From: an uncultured Dehalococcoidia bacterium
GTDB lineage: Bacteria > Chloroflexota > Dehalococcoidia > Lucifugimonadales > UBA1123
Length of the DNA: 64,000 nt
Reading direction: 5' to 3'
Assembly (NCBI GenBank): GCA_958296105.1
Contig: OY282441.1
Coordinates: 717,800 to 781,799, forward strand
Shown here: positions 3,938 to 64,000 of the stretch, piece by piece
Layout of the letters: each line of letters opens with the position of its first letter
Position numbering within the stretch: position 1 is the first letter of the stretch
The notes under the pieces: generated by a model
Databases searched by the model: none
What the model was told of the DNA's origin: nothing
Seen by the model: only the letters and a program-made list of their open reading frames with translations
Program-made: the position numbers and the translations under genes

Positions 3938-4177
3938 TATGAACACCTTAGCTTAGCTATTGATGACCTGCCATTTCCACTGCCACCCACTCTCGATGAA
4001 CAAAGTGGAGGCGGCGCCGTTCTCAGCGTCTCCGACTGTCGAAGCGACCTGCGGGAAAGTAAGCGCATCGTGGGGGAGGACATATTCACTCCGATGACGA
4101 CTGGCCAAATCCGAGTCGCAGAGCTCGACCTACCAGCCATTGGTCGGCTGCGCAGCCTCTATACGGGGGTGGGCTGA
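3938..4177 (+). CDS. Possible small or 5'-truncated gene coupled to the TIR gene
   Basis: An open frame of 79 codons after the in-frame TGA at 3935-3937 ends in TGATG, so its stop overlaps the TIR start by one base. Its composition looks coding (LPPTLDEQ, RIVGEDIFTP, RVAELDLPAIGRLRSLY). I could not find a normal start: the first in-frame ATG is near codon 50. It could be the 3' part of a truncated gene, a gene with a rare start codon, or chance. No family is recognised. It fills the gap between the IS1-like remnant and the TIR gene. Confidence 0.35.
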   Translation, partial: YEHLSLAIDDLPFPLPPTLDEQSGGGAVLSVSDCRSDLRESKRIVGEDIFTPMTTGQIRVAELDLPAIGRLRSLYTGVG

Positions 4178-5355
4178 TGGTGGAAGCCAACGTCCCGTCT
4201 CCCTTCATGCTCTACGTCGTTTGGCATCGGGAATACGATCTTGGGGCCAAGATCGCAAAAACGCTTCACAACCACTTCGGTTCCCATCGCTACAGAAACA
4301 TTGCAGGGGGCGCGGGTGTGCGCGTGATTTTTCGCAATTCGGCTGCGCCTGACTCTCAGACCCCTATTCCAGTCGACTGGGACAGCGCTGACACGACTGC
4401 AACCGTGACCTTGATCGACCGATCGCTTGCAAATGATCGAGCATGGGTACGGTATGTTATTGGCTTGTCGAGAGAAGCCGATGTCAGGGGTTTCCGTGCC
4501 CGAGTGTTTCCGGTCGAAATGGAAGCGGGTACCCTCGATATCGGGATCGAGGAGCAAGCGTTCCGCTGGGTCCGTTGGACGGGTACGAGTGACGAACGCG
4601 AGCAACGGCTCATCAGAGACATCACCCACGAGTTCTGTAGGATGCTGAGACATCACTTGGCGCAACTTCAGCATCCAGATGCCGAAGACGACCTCGAACA
4701 ATACTTGAAGAAAGTCAACGTCTTCCTCAGTCATTCCAAGCACGACGGACATGGTGAACTGGTGGCTGAAAAAATCCGAGACTGGTTCCACAGCAACAGC
4801 GCCCTATCGAGTTTCTTGGACGTCCATGATATACCCGCGGGGCTGCCATTTTCGACGGTCATCAACCACTCCATCCAAGACGGAATTTTGGTAGCGGTGT
4901 ATACTGATTCCTACTCGTCTCGCGAGTGGTGCAGACATGAAGTGATCAGAGCAAAGCTCATGAACGTTCCGATGCTGGTTGTGGATTGCCTGCAAACGCT
5001 CGATGAGCGCGCCTTCCCCTACTTGGGGAATGTGCCTTTCATCCGCATGGATCCAGATAGAACGGATCGGATCGATCAGATAGCGGGCATCCTGCTAGAC
5101 GAAACATTCAAGGACTTCCTCTGGAGGTGCAGGGTCGAGAGGCTCCGCGAACTGCATCCACAGACCATGTTCACAGCGCGTTCGCCAGAGTTGATATCGC
5201 TTGCGAGCTTCCCTGACTCAACTGGTGACTTCGAACGAGTAATCGTCTATCCCGATCCACCGCTAGGCACAGGGGAGGCGCGGCTGTTCTCTGACGTTGC
5301 ACACAATGTGAGTCTGTACAACCTGACTGAGTGGCTGGCGGAAGTGGGAGAATGA
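4177..5355 (+). CDS. TIR-domain protein, probable NAD-cleaving defence effector or signal producer
   Basis: Of 392 residues, the C-terminal half (about 178-300) is a TIR domain. It starts VNVFLSHSKHDGHG, has FLDVHDIPAG in the BB-loop position, and carries SSREWCRHEV with the presumed catalytic glutamate E255 (WCxxE). The N-terminal 130 residues (FMLYVVWHREYDLGAKIAKTL, then VTLIDRSLANDRAWVRYVI) look like a second, degenerate TIR-like fold lacking that glutamate. No signal peptide is seen. TIR enzymes of this kind cleave NAD+ or make cyclic ADP-ribose signals. The stop overlaps the next start (ATGA), coupling it to the SLOG gene. Function in anti-phage defence is inferred from family and context. 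Confidence 0.85.
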   Translation: MVEANVPSPFMLYVVWHREYDLGAKIAKTLHNHFGSHRYRNIAGGAGVRVIFRNSAAPDSQTPIPVDWDSADTTATVTLIDRSLANDRAWVRYVIGLSREADVRGFRARVFPVEMEAGTLDIGIEEQAFRWVRWTGTSDEREQRLIRDITHEFCRMLRHHLAQLQHPDAEDDLEQYLKKVNVFLSHSKHDGHGELVAEKIRDWFHSNSALSSFLDVHDIPAGLPFSTVINHSIQDGILVAVYTDSYSSREWCRHEVIRAKLMNVPMLVVDCLQTLDERAFPYLGNVPFIRMDPDRTDRIDQIAGILLDETFKDFLWRCRVERLRELHPQTMFTARSPELISLASFPDSTGDFERVIVYPDPPLGTGEARLFSDVAHNVSLYNLTEWLAEVGE

Positions 5356-58229: not shown

Positions 58230-58245
58230 GCCGATGCCGCCGCGC

Positions 58246-60561
58246 CTACCTGCGATGCCACGTCACCGCAAGCTCGGAGACGGCGTCCAGAATCGGGGAG
58301 CGATCCCCGAACCAGTGGATGCCCAGATAGTGCTTGGCGCGCGTGGTCGCCAAGTACAGCAGCTTCTTGTTGAACAGCGTGTCTCTGAACGTATCGTTGA
58401 CGCCCATGACGATGACGGCGTCGTACTCCAGCCCCTTGGCGTCCGGTATTCGGGCGAGAATGGTCAGCGCGCCGGCTGAGTCTTCTTCTCCGAACGACGC
58501 GATGCCGTCAAAGCCTGCATCTTTGCAGAAGTCCCTGAATCGGTTCATATTCAGGGTATCTCTGACGAGAATAGAGACGACAGCATCGTCGAGGCCGTCC
58601 ATCGAGCGAATCCTGTCTATGTCTTCGATAATCGCTCGATACATGGCGCTGCCGTTGGCGTGTCGGCTGTACTCCACCCTAGCGCCATCGCGCGAGAAGG
58701 GTATGGGCGCGGGGATGTTCTTGTCGAACGTGCGCAGAATCCTGTTGGTGAACGTGGTTATCTGTCTGGTGGACCTATATGTTCTGCGAACGGGCTGCAC
58801 TTCGATATCCGAGCGTCCGAACACCGGGTTCAGATCGCGTTTCCACGTCCTGATTCCGCGATAGGGCGTCAGCCTCTGCGCCGTGTCTCCCAGCACGGTG
58901 AACCAGTTGTTGGACGAGCTTATGGCGAGCAGCTTGAACTCGATTGGCGATATGTCCTGCGCCTCGTCGACCACGATGTGCCTGTATCTGCGCTCGACGG
59001 TCCGGTTCAGGAGGTGGTCGAGATATGCCAGCGCGCCCATGTCGGCGTCTCCGAACTCGCCGCCCCTGTTCGAGCGCGCCGACTGCGCCAGCGATTCGGC
59101 GTCCTCGGCGCTCAGGGCGTTCCTGGACAGCCTCGCCATTCTGTCCGCGTCCGACAGCAGCGCGGCGTACTCTTGCCTGAAGTCTATGGGCTGCCACGCG
59201 GATTCGCACCAAGACTCGACCACGTCCCTTATGACTGCCCTGCGCCTCTCGGTCTCACTGCGATCACGTCGGGTTCTTTCCAGCGCATCGCGCGCGCCCC
59301 GCTGTCTCTGCGACTGGGCGCGCTGAAGGCGACGGCCGAGCGGGCCTGCCTGTTCCACCATCCTGATTATTCTGCTTATGAAATCGTCTCTGAGGCGATT
59401 CAGGAACTGCCCAGCCGCGCGCGCCGGCAGCACGGCGTCCAGCGTGTCTTTGACCTGCTGGCGCGTCACCCTGACCACGAAGTCCGGGCCCACGATGGGG
59501 TCTAGGTCGAGGCAGCGTTTGCGCGTCTCTCGCGCGCGCTCGGAGACGTGCCTGTCCATGGCGTCCGCCATGCCGAGCGACCCCTTGAAGGTCTCGGACT
59601 GCTCATCGAAGTCGCCCATCCCGCCCGTGCTGAGGAGGCTGTTCCAGATCTTGGGTCTGACGGTTACTCGCGCCGACATTAGCTTGCCGAGCCACTCGCT
59701 GAACCTGACGCGATGGACGCCCGCCGCTACGCCGAGATTCGGCAAGACGTAATCCACGTTCTCCAAGAACGCCTGCGACGGGCCGACGATAAGCGTAGTG
59801 TTCGGCGTGGGGCGTTCGTTCTCGGCGATGTCGCTGAACGGAGACAGCAGAAAAGCGATTCGGTGCAGCCCTATCTCGCTCTTGCCGCTGCCGGCGGCTC
59901 CCTGCACGATCAGCACCTTGTCGCTGACGTTGGCGATGCTCTCGTACTGCTCAGGCTCGATGGTCTCTATGATGACGGTCAGCTGTCCATCGTCCGCACC
60001 CGTGCCGCTGAGCGCGCGCGCCAGAACGTTCTGACCTGCCGAGTCTGGGGCGAGAAGCTGCCGTTGGAAGATGTCGTTCAGGTCTTCGAGCTGCCCATCC
60101 CTGATTCGCAGGTATCGCTTGAGCTCGACCCATGTTTCGATGAATTGCTTGGGCGCGGTGATTCCACCCTCGCGGCTCTGCGTGTACCAGAGACTGCCGA
60201 CGGGGGCGGTCCAGCTAAAGATGTTCGTGCCGGAGATTTGCGCTCCGCCCAGATAGATCGTTCTCATCTTGCCGAGATCGCCGTTGGATTCGGCATCTGG
60301 GAGAGGGTCGCCTTTATCTCTGTGGTAGTAGTCCAAGCGTCCGAAGTACGGCTCTTTGAGCGCGTTCCAGAACACTTCCGAGCACTCGGTGAGGATTTTC
60401 TGAATGGCGTTCGCCGTCTGCTGGTGCGCTGCGGTGGCGGGCATAGCGGTCTTCAGGCTCTGGTAGCTATCCTCGATGTGGCGGGTGACGTCCGCCAGCT
60501 TCTGGCTCTCTTCGTCGAACGCCTGCTCCGCCAGCAGCTCTTCCGCTTCGTGCCGATCCAT
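58246..60561 (-). CDS. HelD-like UvrD/Rep-family helicase
   Basis: The 771-residue protein starts with a coiled-coil arm (residues about 5-60). The HelD-specific block follows (EPYFGRLDYYHRD, RTIYLGGAQISG, FSWTAPVGSLWYTQ, WVELKRYLRIRDGQL). Then come Walker A VQGAAGSGKSEIGLHR (about 223-238), the DExx box HIVVDEAQDISP, TVLGDTAQRL and the C-terminal YLATTRAKHYLGIHWFG. HelD proteins bind RNA polymerase and free stalled enzyme. The start at 60561 has GGAGG seven bases upstream. It is the last gene of an operon beginning with a HARE-type winged-helix protein. Confidence 0.88.
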   Translation of the reverse strand: MDRHEAEELLAEQAFDEESQKLADVTRHIEDSYQSLKTAMPATAAHQQTANAIQKILTECSEVFWNALKEPYFGRLDYYHRDKGDPLPDAESNGDLGKMRTIYLGGAQISGTNIFSWTAPVGSLWYTQSREGGITAPKQFIETWVELKRYLRIRDGQLEDLNDIFQRQLLAPDSAGQNVLARALSGTGADDGQLTVIIETIEPEQYESIANVSDKVLIVQGAAGSGKSEIGLHRIAFLLSPFSDIAENERPTPNTTLIVGPSQAFLENVDYVLPNLGVAAGVHRVRFSEWLGKLMSARVTVRPKIWNSLLSTGGMGDFDEQSETFKGSLGMADAMDRHVSERARETRKRCLDLDPIVGPDFVVRVTRQQVKDTLDAVLPARAAGQFLNRLRDDFISRIIRMVEQAGPLGRRLQRAQSQRQRGARDALERTRRDRSETERRRAVIRDVVESWCESAWQPIDFRQEYAALLSDADRMARLSRNALSAEDAESLAQSARSNRGGEFGDADMGALAYLDHLLNRTVERRYRHIVVDEAQDISPIEFKLLAISSSNNWFTVLGDTAQRLTPYRGIRTWKRDLNPVFGRSDIEVQPVRRTYRSTRQITTFTNRILRTFDKNIPAPIPFSRDGARVEYSRHANGSAMYRAIIEDIDRIRSMDGLDDAVVSILVRDTLNMNRFRDFCKDAGFDGIASFGEEDSAGALTILARIPDAKGLEYDAVIVMGVNDTFRDTLFNKKLLYLATTRAKHYLGIHWFGDRSPILDAVSELAVTWHRR

Positions 60562-60615
60562 GGGGCGCCTCCTCAACTAATCCGCGACTAATCCGCTGCC
60601 AGTCTGCGCCGCTCG

Positions 60616-60810
60616 CTACCACGGAACGGCGCTCTCGTTCTCATCGCCATCCTCCGGCTCGGCGGACGGCGTCGAGGCGCTCACTATCCCGCTATCGAGG
60701 ATCTGGACGGTCATGGCGACGGCGTTGTACTGCATGTCTATCTCGCGCTTCCGCGCCTCTAGCTGGCGCATGACGGACTTGAGGTCTTCGATCGTATCTT
60801 CTCTGCTCAC
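60616..60810 (-). CDS. Small coiled-coil protein related to the operon's first gene
   Basis: The 64-residue protein (GTG start at 60810, AAGGAG six bases upstream) reads SREDTIEDLKSVMRQLEARK then REIDMQYNAVAMTVQILDSG. This is a single helical hairpin that parallels the N terminus of the 61204-61674 protein (VRESTVIDLKAALRDLEEKK). It overlaps the 3' part of the upstream gene by 119 bases in another frame. Function unknown; the shared helix suggests a common partner, possibly the helicase. Confidence 0.65.
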   Translation of the reverse strand: MSREDTIEDLKSVMRQLEARKREIDMQYNAVAMTVQILDSGIVSASTPSAEPEDGDENESAVPW

Positions 60811-61207
60811 GGTGTTCTCCTTCTCTGGCAGTCCTTTCCTCCGAGACGGGGGATATGGCCGAGACGGGGGATATGGACTGCGCGTTTGGTGTTCGGTCGG
60901 GATTTCGGCTGTCGAACCACTCGATATGCACCCGCAGACGCTCGTCATGGAGATGGTATCTGCTGCCATGTCCGACGTGCCAAACCAGATGCCGGGTGCA
61001 TCTGTATGCCTGCATGTCGCCGCATACGAAGCGCTGGTTATGTCTTCTAGCCACGTCCAGCGCTTCGGCTTCGGAGTAGCGCTTCTTGCCTGTGCATGAT
61101 TTTCGGCTGGGGCGGAAGCCTATTTCCCGATACATGAGGCCGCGCCTCGTGTCGTACTCACTGCGCGCCTGCGCGTCTTCCACTCCGAGCCGCCTTCGAC
61201 TCATCAT
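60692..61207 (-). CDS. Small Cys/His protein of unknown function
   Basis: The 171-residue protein starts MMSRRRLGVEDAQARSEY and has a conserved-looking core KKRYSEAEALDVARRHNQRF, then YRCTRHLVWHVGHGSRYHLH with Cys and His that could bind zinc. The ATGATG start overlaps the upstream stop (ATGA), with GAGGAG eight bases before. The last 40 residues are Arg-rich, contain an 18-base tandem repeat (near 60845-60880) and overlap the next gene, so the true product may be shorter or a frame error may extend it. Confidence 0.6.
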   Translation of the reverse strand: MMSRRRLGVEDAQARSEYDTRRGLMYREIGFRPSRKSCTGKKRYSEAEALDVARRHNQRFVCGDMQAYRCTRHLVWHVGHGSRYHLHDERLRVHIEWFDSRNPDRTPNAQSISPVSAISPVSEERTAREGEHREQRRYDRRPQVRHAPARGAEARDRHAVQRRRHDRPDPR

Positions 61208-61674
61208 GGGACATTCTCCTCCTCGTGGTCTTGGTATTCGTCGTCTGGGGGGTCGCCAGCTGCGCTTTGGCGCTCCGGCTGATTCGTCTCGTCGATTCGT
61301 TCTGCGACATCCCACATTCCGCTTCCAACGCTCTTGAAGCGCTGGTCCAAGCTAAGGTAAGTGCCTACGTTGCGCACGGGGTCTCTCCCCCCCACCACTA
61401 TTCCCATTTCCACGATCCTGCGGTGTACTTCTGTCCGGTGGAGTGGGCCATGGGCGGCGAGGACATCGTTCATAGCATCACGCATCACGTTCGAAGGGCT
61501 TGGGCTTCGGGCGGCGGAGGGCTGCTCTGGCTGGGGAATGGGGTTCGAGTCCATGCCCTCGAAGTACTGAATCATTATTGCGGCCGCGCTGATCTGCTCT
61601 TCGATCCGGCGCTTCTTTTCTTCCAGATCCCTGAGCGCCGCTTTTAAGTCGATGACGGTGGATTCACGGACCAT
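61204..61674 (-). CDS. Coiled-coil plus HARE-type winged-helix protein
   Basis: The 156-residue protein starts with a helical hairpin (TVIDLKAALRDLEEKKRRIEEQI). After a Pro/Ser linker it has a winged-helix unit, VMRDAMNDVLAAHGPLHRTE then VHRRIVEMGI, NVGTYLSLDQRFKSVGSGMWDV. This fits the HARE-HTH domain found in the RNA polymerase delta subunit and in restriction or chromatin proteins. It is the first gene of the operon leading to the HelD-like helicase. The start is the ATG at 61674 with GAGGA upstream; an ATG at 61701 lacks a ribosome site. Confidence 0.7.
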   Translation of the reverse strand: MVRESTVIDLKAALRDLEEKKRRIEEQISAAAIMIQYFEGMDSNPIPQPEQPSAARSPSPSNVMRDAMNDVLAAHGPLHRTEVHRRIVEMGIVVGGRDPVRNVGTYLSLDQRFKSVGSGMWDVAERIDETNQPERQSAAGDPPDDEYQDHEEENVP

Positions 61675-61744
61675 GTCTTCCTCTCCGACAAGCGCCAACA
61701 TCGTCCCGGCGTCCTTAGCGCACTGTATGGTTTTTCATTTAGCG

Positions 61745-61784
61745 ATTATAGCATCTTGGAATGACGAGTATAGCATCTTGGAAT
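61745..61784 (-). promoter_or_regulatory. Extended -10 promoter with 22-bp-spaced direct repeats
   Basis: On the minus strand TGCTATAAT (61753-61745) is an extended -10 about 70 bases before the start at 61674. The sequence TATAGCATCTTGGAAT (plus strand) occurs at 61747-61762 and again at 61769-61784, 22 bases apart, which is two helical turns and typical of regulator binding sites. Confidence 0.5.
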
Positions 61785-61830
61785 TTCCATCATAACGACG
61801 CGTCTTTCGATTGGGGAGCTGCTCGACTGT

Positions 61831-61867
61831 AAATTGAAAAAGGCGGCCCCGCCGTGCGGGAGCCGCC
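61831..61867 (-). terminator. Rho-independent terminator of the NHL gene
   Basis: On the minus strand GGCGGC, an inner CCCGC/GCGGG stem and GCCGCC are followed by TTTTTCAATTT. It lies about 30 bases after the NHL gene stop at 61898. Confidence 0.8.
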
Positions 61868-61897
61868 CTTCGTCATTGGGAGTCTGTATACTGCGGG

Positions 61898-62896
61898 CTA
61901 CGTGGTGAACAGGATGGGGTTTCGCATGGGCGGGGCGATCTGGCTCTCGGAAAGCTCGTAGGCTTCCTTCTTGTATACCTGAATGCGGTGCTGGCCGAAG
62001 TCGCAGATGAACAGGCGGAACTCCGAATCCACGCGCACGCGGCAGGGGGCGCTCAGCCGTCTGGTCGGCTCCAGGTCGGTCATCTCGCGCAGTCTCAGCG
62101 TCACCTGATTGGCCAGGATGTACTCGCGCCCTGACTTGGACAGGTTGGCGTCTCCGATGAACTGCTCGATGAATCGTCCGTCGGCGTTGAACATTTGCAC
62201 TCGGTCGTTGAGCCAGTCGGAGACGTAGATGTCGCCGTGCGCGTCCACGTCCACGGACGAGGGGCGGTTGAACTCGCCCTTGCCGCTGCCGGACGAGCCT
62301 ATGCTCATCACGAACTCGCCTTCGCCGGTGAACTTCTGCACTCGGTCGTTGCGCCAGTCGGAGACGTAGACGAAGCCAAGCTCGTCTACGGCGACGCCCC
62401 AAGGCATGTTCATCTCGCCTTCGCCGCTGCCCTGCACTCCTCCGATGGTCTGAAGGTGCTTGCCGTCTCGCGTGAAGCGCTGGACGCGGTTGTTGATCGT
62501 GTCGGACACGACGATGTTGCCCTGCGCGTCGAAGTCGAGGGCGGAGGGTCTGTCCAGCTGGCCGTGGTCGGAACCCGGCTCTCCCCACGTATCCAGCACG
62601 TCGCCGTCCTTGCTCATTACGGTGATCGTGTTCTTCGCCTCGTCGGAGACGTAGAGGTTCTCATCCTCGTCCACGAGCAGGCCGGCGGGCCAGGTGAAGC
62701 TGCCCGATCCTCTCAGTCCTAGGTTCTCGTCTTCCCAGTTGATGACTCGCACTTCGGACCCCAAGCCGCCGCGTGTGAGAACGTACACGTTCTCCTCGCC
62801 AAATCCGATGTCCACCGGATTGGACGTCACCCGTCTCTGGCCCATCGTCAGATAGTACGGGAACCCGGACCTCAGCAGTGCGTATGGCCTCGCCAT
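61898..62896 (-). CDS. NHL-repeat beta-propeller protein
   Basis: The 332-residue protein consists of repeated blades with NHL cores: LVDEDENLYVSDEAKNTITV, ALDFDAQGNIVVSDTINNRVQ, AVDELGFVYVSDWRNDRVQK, SVDVDAHGDIYVSDWLNDRV and VRVDSEFRLFICDFGQHRIQ (each in part). Together they form about six blades. No signal peptide is visible with the ATG at 62896. Such propellers serve as scaffolds or lyase-like enzymes. It lies downstream of the DUF1501 gene on the same strand. A strong terminator follows. Confidence 0.85.
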   Translation of the reverse strand: MARPYALLRSGFPYYLTMGQRRVTSNPVDIGFGEENVYVLTRGGLGSEVRVINWEDENLGLRGSGSFTWPAGLLVDEDENLYVSDEAKNTITVMSKDGDVLDTWGEPGSDHGQLDRPSALDFDAQGNIVVSDTINNRVQRFTRDGKHLQTIGGVQGSGEGEMNMPWGVAVDELGFVYVSDWRNDRVQKFTGEGEFVMSIGSSGSGKGEFNRPSSVDVDAHGDIYVSDWLNDRVQMFNADGRFIEQFIGDANLSKSGREYILANQVTLRLREMTDLEPTRRLSAPCRVRVDSEFRLFICDFGQHRIQVYKKEAYELSESQIAPPMRNPILFTT

Positions 62897-62915
62897 GTGT
62901 TCAACCTCACTCTTG

Positions 62916-62939
62916 CCCCCTCCCCGTCTGGGGAGGGGG
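62916..62939. repeat. Perfect 10-bp GC-rich palindrome
   Basis: CCCCCTCCCC (62916-62925) and GGGGAGGGGG (62930-62939) with a four-base loop, another variant of the intergenic palindromic repeats, between the DUF1501 stop and the NHL start. It could attenuate or terminate transcription from the DUF1501 gene. Confidence 0.65.
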
Positions 62940-62973
62940 AATCTGCGTTTTTCCAGTCGCTGCTCGAACGGCC

Positions 62974-64000
62974 CTACTCGAACGGGTGGATCTGCTCGTA
63001 GTGGCCGTTGACGATCGGGGCTGCCTCGACGCCTAGCCACTGCTCCAAGATGGTGCCGTAGATGCCCCGATAGTCTATGGTGTGTTCGAGGTCTTCGCCG
63101 TTCACCCAGCGGGTGGGTTCCAAGGACGGGTACTCGGAGTACAGCCCGCCGGCAACCGTCTTGCCGATGACGAAGGCTCCGCCGCCGGAGCCGTGGTCGG
63201 TGCCGGAGCCGTTGTCGTAGATGCGCCGTCCGAACTCGGTGAACACCAGCATCACCACGTTGTCGTCCGCGTCATGCTCTTCGAGGTCTGCGAAGAAGTC
63301 GTAGATCGCGCCGGACAGGTCGCCTATCAGCTTCGGGTGGGTGGGAACCTCGTTGGCGTGGGTGTCGTATCCGCCGTGAGACGTGTAGAACACGCGCGTT
63401 CCGAGATCGGCGGTGTGGACGCGCGCCACGTCTCGCAGGCTCTTGGCTATCGGGTTGTCCGCGTACTCCACAGTCGACTGGTAGCGTTCGGGGGCGACCT
63501 TTATGAGGTCTGCGCCGGAGAGTACGTCCTGACCTGTGCGCGAGAGGTACTCCATGACTGGACCGGCGCCGATTGCGGGGCCGTACATCTGCTTGAAGAT
63601 GTCGAGCGCCTGATCGCGCTCGCGGCTCTGTATGCCGGTCATCAGGCCGTAGTTGTCGAGGTTGGATACGCTGGTGACAGGCACGCCGGGCATTGCCATG
63701 GCGCGGGGCAAGCCCACGCCGAAGTTGACGCCTGTCAGCGGGTTCTCGCCCGCCGGGTCCAGCTCTCTGAGCGTGCGTCCGAGCCAGCCGATGGTGGATA
63801 CTTCGTGCGGCTCGCAGGTGTGCCAGATGTCCATGCCCCTGAAGTGGGAGCGGTTGGAGTTGGGGTAGCCGATGCCCTGCACTATTCCGACCATGCCCCG
63901 ATCGTACAGATCCTTGAACGCTCCCATCTGGGGGTGGAAGCCGAGCGTGTCATCTATGGGTATCACCTGATCTTGGGGTATGCCCACCAGTGGCCTGTTG
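62974..64000 (-). CDS. DUF1501-domain protein, 5' end beyond the window
   Basis: The minus-strand frame is open to the last base of the window and ends at 62974. It has DUF1501/sulfatase-like features: GIGYPNSNRSHFRGMDIWHT, VNFGVGLPRAMAMPGVP, VFYTSHGGYDTHANEVPTHP, VVMLVFTEFGRRIYDNGSGTDHGSGGGAFVIG (quoted in part), with His and Asp residues as metal ligands. Family members are exported through Tat and usually pair with DUF1800 proteins; the N terminus is not in view. At least 341 residues are present. Confidence 0.85.
   Translation of the reverse strand, partial: NRPLVGIPQDQVIPIDDTLGFHPQMGAFKDLYDRGMVGIVQGIGYPNSNRSHFRGMDIWHTCEPHEVSTIGWLGRTLRELDPAGENPLTGVNFGVGLPRAMAMPGVPVTSVSNLDNYGLMTGIQSRERDQALDIFKQMYGPAIGAGPVMEYLSRTGQDVLSGADLIKVAPERYQSTVEYADNPIAKSLRDVARVHTADLGTRVFYTSHGGYDTHANEVPTHPKLIGDLSGAIYDFFADLEEHDADDNVVMLVFTEFGRRIYDNGSGTDHGSGGGAFVIGKTVAGGLYSEYPSLEPTRWVNGEDLEHTIDYRGIYGTILEQWLGVEAAPIVNGHYEQIHPFE

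Follow-up and report, generated by a model that had tools for sequence, protein, structure and literature searches.

What does a motor related to HelD do when it is encoded in one operon with a winged-helix protein that resembles the delta subunit of RNA polymerase? This question is raised by the window analyzed here—a stretch of 64,000 nucleotides from an uncultured Dehalococcoidia bacterium (contig OY282441.1 of assembly GCA_958296105.1)—which carries four tightly spaced genes, A, B, C, and D, at positions 58246–61674, all on the minus strand. HelD, which comes in classes I to III, is a motor that frees DNA of stuck RNA polymerase, and it has been described as a factor for recycling in transcription and for protection from rifampicin. 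We tentatively read the operon as a small mobile conflict cassette, probably directed against invaders, whose HelD-like motor D would be recruited by DNA-reading adaptors; the probability that we give to this reading is roughly 0.42. The literature on HelD with HARE or DGQHR/HEPN partners, as far as it was covered—in part only, "held" being a common word—describes no such arrangement. If the reading is true, RNA polymerase removal would be tied to genome conflict through a HelD-like clade that keeps company with DNA-reading genes and genes of a restriction type. A further gain would be a natural, separately evolved delta–HelD partnership, in which recruitment by an acidic tail can be tested.

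An accessory operon in a variable slot

The operon A–B–C–D is real. The order A–B–D recurs in the genomes G028 and G039, which together with the window's own genome belong to different families of the order and carry these genes at unrelated sites, and this recurrence puts the grouping beyond chance. Close homologues of D (59–62% identical) are found in G028, G039, and G046, each from a different family of the order; in G046, D is intact, A is decayed, and another decayed gene lies between them. Comparison between genomes points to purifying selection on A, B, and D, with ratios of nonsynonymous to synonymous substitution (dN/dS) of ∼0.2–0.4 at a dS near saturation.

The operon is an accessory, mobile cassette in a variable slot. 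D is present at E ≤ 1e-100 in seven of 250 genomes of the order and, at this threshold, in none of the seven further genomes from the family of the window. In G001, a genome of the same genus, synteny holds for the ABC-transporter and NHL genes on either side, and the place of the operon is filled by an amidase gene. Two further genomes of the genus, G002 and G003, bear HicAB and nucleotidyltransferase-HEPN toxin–antitoxin genes downstream of the same NHL gene; hence, the slot acts as a hotspot for accessory genes. These toxin–antitoxin stretches lie at L173:3389-5850 and L175:2883-5353. For the NHL-repeat protein itself (window 61898–63040), its own genome yields 16 matches at E ≤ 1e-20, and its families in relatives are large.

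The features of the locus are collected in Table 1. For A, the preferred start is the ATG that matches the start positions of the relatives, the listed upstream start giving a longer open reading frame (ORF). The ATG of B sits within the end of A with an overlap of 4 nt. The GTG of C is preceded by AAGGAG and opens a frame of 64 residues with a clear coding bias (GC at the three codon positions 0.62/0.40/0.83); B and C overlap along the final 39 codons of B, where the base composition tracks the frame of C. With E = 3e-6, C matches the coiled coil at the N-terminus of A, and it bears a C-terminal tail resembling those of A homologues—it is a shortened A. The ATG of D is preceded by GAGGAG. The tandem 22-bp repeat upstream of A has just these two copies in the genome and shows no conservation in relatives. 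The original prediction of a small coiled-coil paralogue and a Cys/His protein is thus borne out by C and B, and the four-gene order that it proposed to look for in other Chloroflexota holds in relatives for A–B–D, C being confined to the window's genome.

Table 1 Features of the operon and its slot (window positions)
Feature	Position	Strand	Description
Gene A	61204..61674	-	coiled coil, probable HARE/delta-type winged helix, and short acidic tail; ORF listed from 61701
Winged helix of A	61300..61494	-	placed by alignment; A family matches HARE and delta profiles
Gene B	60692..61207	-	small Cys/His (zinc-type) protein; conserved core is the first ∼100 codons
Gene C	60616..60810	-	paralogue of the A coiled coil, lacking the winged helix; tail ends VPW
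Gene D	58246..60561	-	HelD-like superfamily 1 (SF1) ATPase of the SWT clade; 771 residues
Tandem 22-bp repeat	61743..61781	-	TATACT and TATAAT boxes; putative operon promoter
Accessory slot	58230..61893		between ABC permease gene and NHL gene

A HelD-like motor and a probable HARE-type winged helix

D shares with HelD the 1A/2A motor of SF1—Walker A, Walker B/DEAQ, and motifs V and VI are all present—and the parts that set HelD apart. A small profile of the D family finds B. subtilis HelD in the PDB with E = 1.3e-74 over profile positions 59–751, and D itself matches the NCBIfam model HelD_BACSU with 191.9 bits (E = 1.4e-56), which fails the cut-off of 419 bits. An AlphaFold model of D, built from 14 aligned sequences, reaches a mean predicted local distance difference test (pLDDT) score of 78.8. 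Its best seven Foldseek matches are all HelD chains, far ahead of UvrD/PcrA, with 6WVK (B. subtilis) and 6YXU (M. smegmatis) as reference structures of HelD. In VIA-align, HelD chains are aligned near full length (582–665 residues, Z 22–27), whereas UvrD covers ∼410 residues at similar Z. The N-terminal arm of HelD, an antiparallel coiled coil of ∼50–150 residues for the secondary channel, is represented by helices 5–39 and 47–69 of the model ahead of the PYFGR block, which lies at residue 72 in D and at residue 100 in Bacillaceae—the arm is shorter than in class I. Domain 1A carries an insertion at the position of the clamp arm that is helical in the model and aligned to 6wvk throughout; the distance from Walker A to DEAQ is 311 residues compared with 319 in Bacillaceae HelD.

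D departs from HelD in a motif that is stated to be absolutely conserved across HelD sequences, DWR (PMC8655204). At its position, D has SWT and the examined members of the D clade have SW[TAI], whereas DWR is kept in nine of nine relatives from Bacillota and Actinomycetota where the motif was located. A maximum-likelihood tree gives full support to the SWT clade, which is centred on Chloroflexota; it groups with other HelD-like proteins of this phylum, apart from the Bacillota branch and from the actinobacterial (class II) branch. As SWT replaces DWR and the clade stands separate in the tree, D is, judged from its sequence, a member of a HelD-like sister clade that is not assigned to classes I to III. 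The HelD-type helicase proposed as the last gene of the operon hence stands as HelD-like by profile and Foldseek, though as a diverged relative and not as a classical HelD.

Other assignments for D were rejected. The matches to HelD are far stronger than those to an ordinary UvrD/PcrA or to GajB of the Gabija system. The latter and other defence-linked UvrD-type helicases have the SF1 motor core in common with D; the GajB match is weak (48.8 bits, motor motifs only), the operon holds no GajA, and D bears HelD-type arms. PADLOC returned no complete listed system, with motor-core matches only for D and nothing of weight for A to C. Among viral contigs and phages, D meets only distant motor cores or ordinary HelD, A has no close match, and B has none. 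The neighbours of HelD-like genes on Deinococcus plasmids were uninformative.

For A, the winged helix emerges from the wider family. Against Pfam HARE-HTH (PF05066; gathering score 25.9), window A alone gives sub-threshold matches only, and its homologue in G039 reaches 19.4 bits. Searches with A and an A profile recover a broader set of proteins with a coiled coil and a winged helix, and relatives of the same architecture—most of them found in these searches—pass the HARE cut-off with 26.5–31.8 bits. The best PDB match of the wider-family profile outside of coiled coils is RNA polymerase delta (E = 0.0014), over the N-domain of delta. The delta model TIGR04567 (cut-off 42 bits) has no match to window A; one relative matches the NCBIfam delta model at 1.3e-4, and the best relative reaches 22.1 bits, under the cut-off. 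With hhalign, the three-sequence family of A itself matches delta weakly, and the match is clear for the wider family only. The single-sequence structure prediction of A has a mean pLDDT of 58.8, so that its fold is assigned from profile matches. On these matches, the winged helix of A is probably HARE-type.

A was rejected as a true delta because of its extra N-terminal coiled coil, a short acidic tail, and a D without DWR. Both proteins have an acidic C-terminus, which spans ∼25 residues in A and ∼80 in delta, whose disordered acidic region comprises residues 91–173. The expectation that the operon starts with a HARE-type/coiled-coil protein was nevertheless supported: neither outcome that would have refuted it came about, the winged helix matching no different family and its linkage to D being kept in relatives. 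The central intuition of a pairing in the manner of delta and HelD gains from the likeness of the A family to the N-domain of delta. In restriction systems, HARE domains are credited with the reading of modified bases (PMC10853773).

By inspection, other relatives with a coiled coil and a HARE domain adjoin genes for GHKL-like ATPases (L146, L149, and L156, the last with weak NCBIfam support for GHKL) or, in L145, a DNA methyltransferase. Such pairs form further two-gene modules in several genomes of the class or order.

Partners of D relatives and a shared tail

Beyond the close homologues, more distant D genes of the SWT clade (∼48–53% identical to D) have neighbours of a restriction type. 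In L222 (genome G546), two DndB-type genes stand in tandem; the first carries a fused Swt1-like HEPN domain that narrowly misses the Pfam cut-off, whereas the second overlaps D. In L030—from a metagenome bin labelled Truepera, for which mis-binning is possible—the D-clade gene lies beside a divergent pair of DndB-type genes. These pairs recall the DndB/DGQHR proteins of phosphorothioation and Dpd systems, but no dndC, dndD, or dndE was seen beside them, and the window holds no DndB. L226 has a GmrSD_N-AlbA gene next to its D-clade gene, and L227 has an MmeI-type IIG restriction enzyme ∼0.9 kb downstream. In G028 (L019), the operon continues as A–B–D–X–ParB; DndB was formerly placed in the ParB superfamily (PMC10853773). 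Together with the toxin–antitoxin genes of the slot, these neighbours favour the defence module that was among the options of the original prediction.

Some partners of D also share an acidic tail that ends in Trp, in the form [LV]xW. A ends in relatives as CCATGGTGA—PW-stop, the ATG of B lying within it—and in the window as CCATGATGA, which is P-stop. Window A has thus lost its terminal Trp, while C has kept it. The C-termini read DSDEEDSVPW and DSEEEEDRVPW in the A homologues of G028 and G039, DGDENESAVPW in C, and DGLDDELPW and DEDDDVAW in the second DndB-type proteins of L222 and L030. Cast as a rule (an acidic stretch with [LIVMA][PASG][FW] at the C-terminus) and applied to ORFs that lie no more than 4 kb from a D-type gene, the tail picks out only these five proteins, compared with none of 1221 background ORFs. 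An earlier, stricter rule gave one acidic match in 1408, namely the DndB neighbour in L030, and none of three ordinary DndB controls bears the tail.

The tail-bearing partners come from two unrelated families, HARE-type and DndB-type. A tail carried in common by unrelated partners of one motor suggests that they dock at the same site, which would most simply lie on D or on a further component that D binds too. For delta, the acidic region has been proposed to aid the recruitment of HelD (PMC7749165).

How such a cassette might work can be outlined along these lines. A would assemble through its coiled coil, and its winged helix might read DNA—with modified DNA as the candidate trigger—or RNA polymerase and transcription complexes. 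The acidic tail of A might then dock or recruit D, whose arms and ATPase would dislodge RNA polymerase, or less likely another complex, from the recognized DNA; this removal would shut off transcription there. B may be a zinc accessory of the adaptor A, and C may mix with A by way of the coiled coil, thereby providing a Trp-ended tail in place of the one lost from window A. A more general form, which we hold with greater doubt, is a modular anti-invader system with interchangeable adaptors (HARE or tandem DndB/HEPN), the common tail, and a HelD-like motor that strips transcription complexes from invading DNA.

Alternative explanations and the B family

Several points weigh against the anti-invader cassette. 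D lacks DWR, so that binding to RNA polymerase is not to be assumed. The tail rule was fixed after the tails had been seen, and five proteins underlie it. D occurs without such a partner in G715, G739, and G623—beside aspS where the flank is available—which means that the partners are not obligatory. The operons are found singly and not inside large defence islands, the window operon encodes no recognizable nuclease or toxin, and the adjacency of the type IIG and GmrSD genes may be due to chance.

One alternative is a recycling of RNA polymerase of the housekeeping type, in which A acts as delta and D as HelD to clear stalled polymerase against replication collisions, without a role in defence. 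It is a rather unlikely explanation, though the strongest competitor: a HelD-like D and a delta-like A share an operon, the tail of A is acidic as in delta, and in a group of related genomes D stands alone next to aspS. A rare and patchy distribution, the insertion into a variable slot, and the DndB/HEPN, GmrSD, and IIG genes adjoining D relatives speak against it.

Unlikely as well is a module for DNA repair or the replication fork, in which the tails of A and C would join the partners of single-stranded DNA-binding protein (SSB) and D would work on forks instead of RNA polymerase. The tails do resemble the end of the host SSB, DDADDLPW; across the order, the main SSBs end in LPW, not LPF, in 10 of the 12 members examined (L110, L194-L205), and D is an SF1 motor. 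But in D, HelD-type arms occupy the place of the UvrD domains 1B and 2B, helicase activity is absent from HelD proteins (PMC8655204), and one of the partner tails ends VAW, which is less SSB-like.

Protection from rifampicin or another polymerase inhibitor by an operon like HelR, as also offered by the original prediction, is very improbable: relatives of HelD and HelR do protect polymerase from rifampicin (PMC10719064, PMC8655204), but the actinobacterial class II proteins occupy a separate branch of the tree, D relatives adjoin genes of a restriction type and not of resistance, and nothing was found that points to rifampicin. That unrelated genes without joint function gathered in the slot is scarcely credible, for although the slot is variable and B homologues mostly occur by themselves, A–B–D recurs at unrelated sites in different families as overlapping or closely spaced genes under purifying selection.

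The B family consists of widespread, tiny Cys/His proteins with the pattern C...YxCxx[HC]xxWHxGH (L180–L192). Members occur in 16 of 98 relatives, for the most part as lone genes, and have weak matches to PHROGs 14788 and 15216. In L173 (G002), downstream of the NHL gene, a B homologue lies beside a coiled-coil protein with no helicase, the two genes being at 4094–4645 and 4823–5089; this coiled-coil protein has weak similarity to DUF6381, SAND, and DUF4357, and the two are possibly another pair of an adaptor and B.

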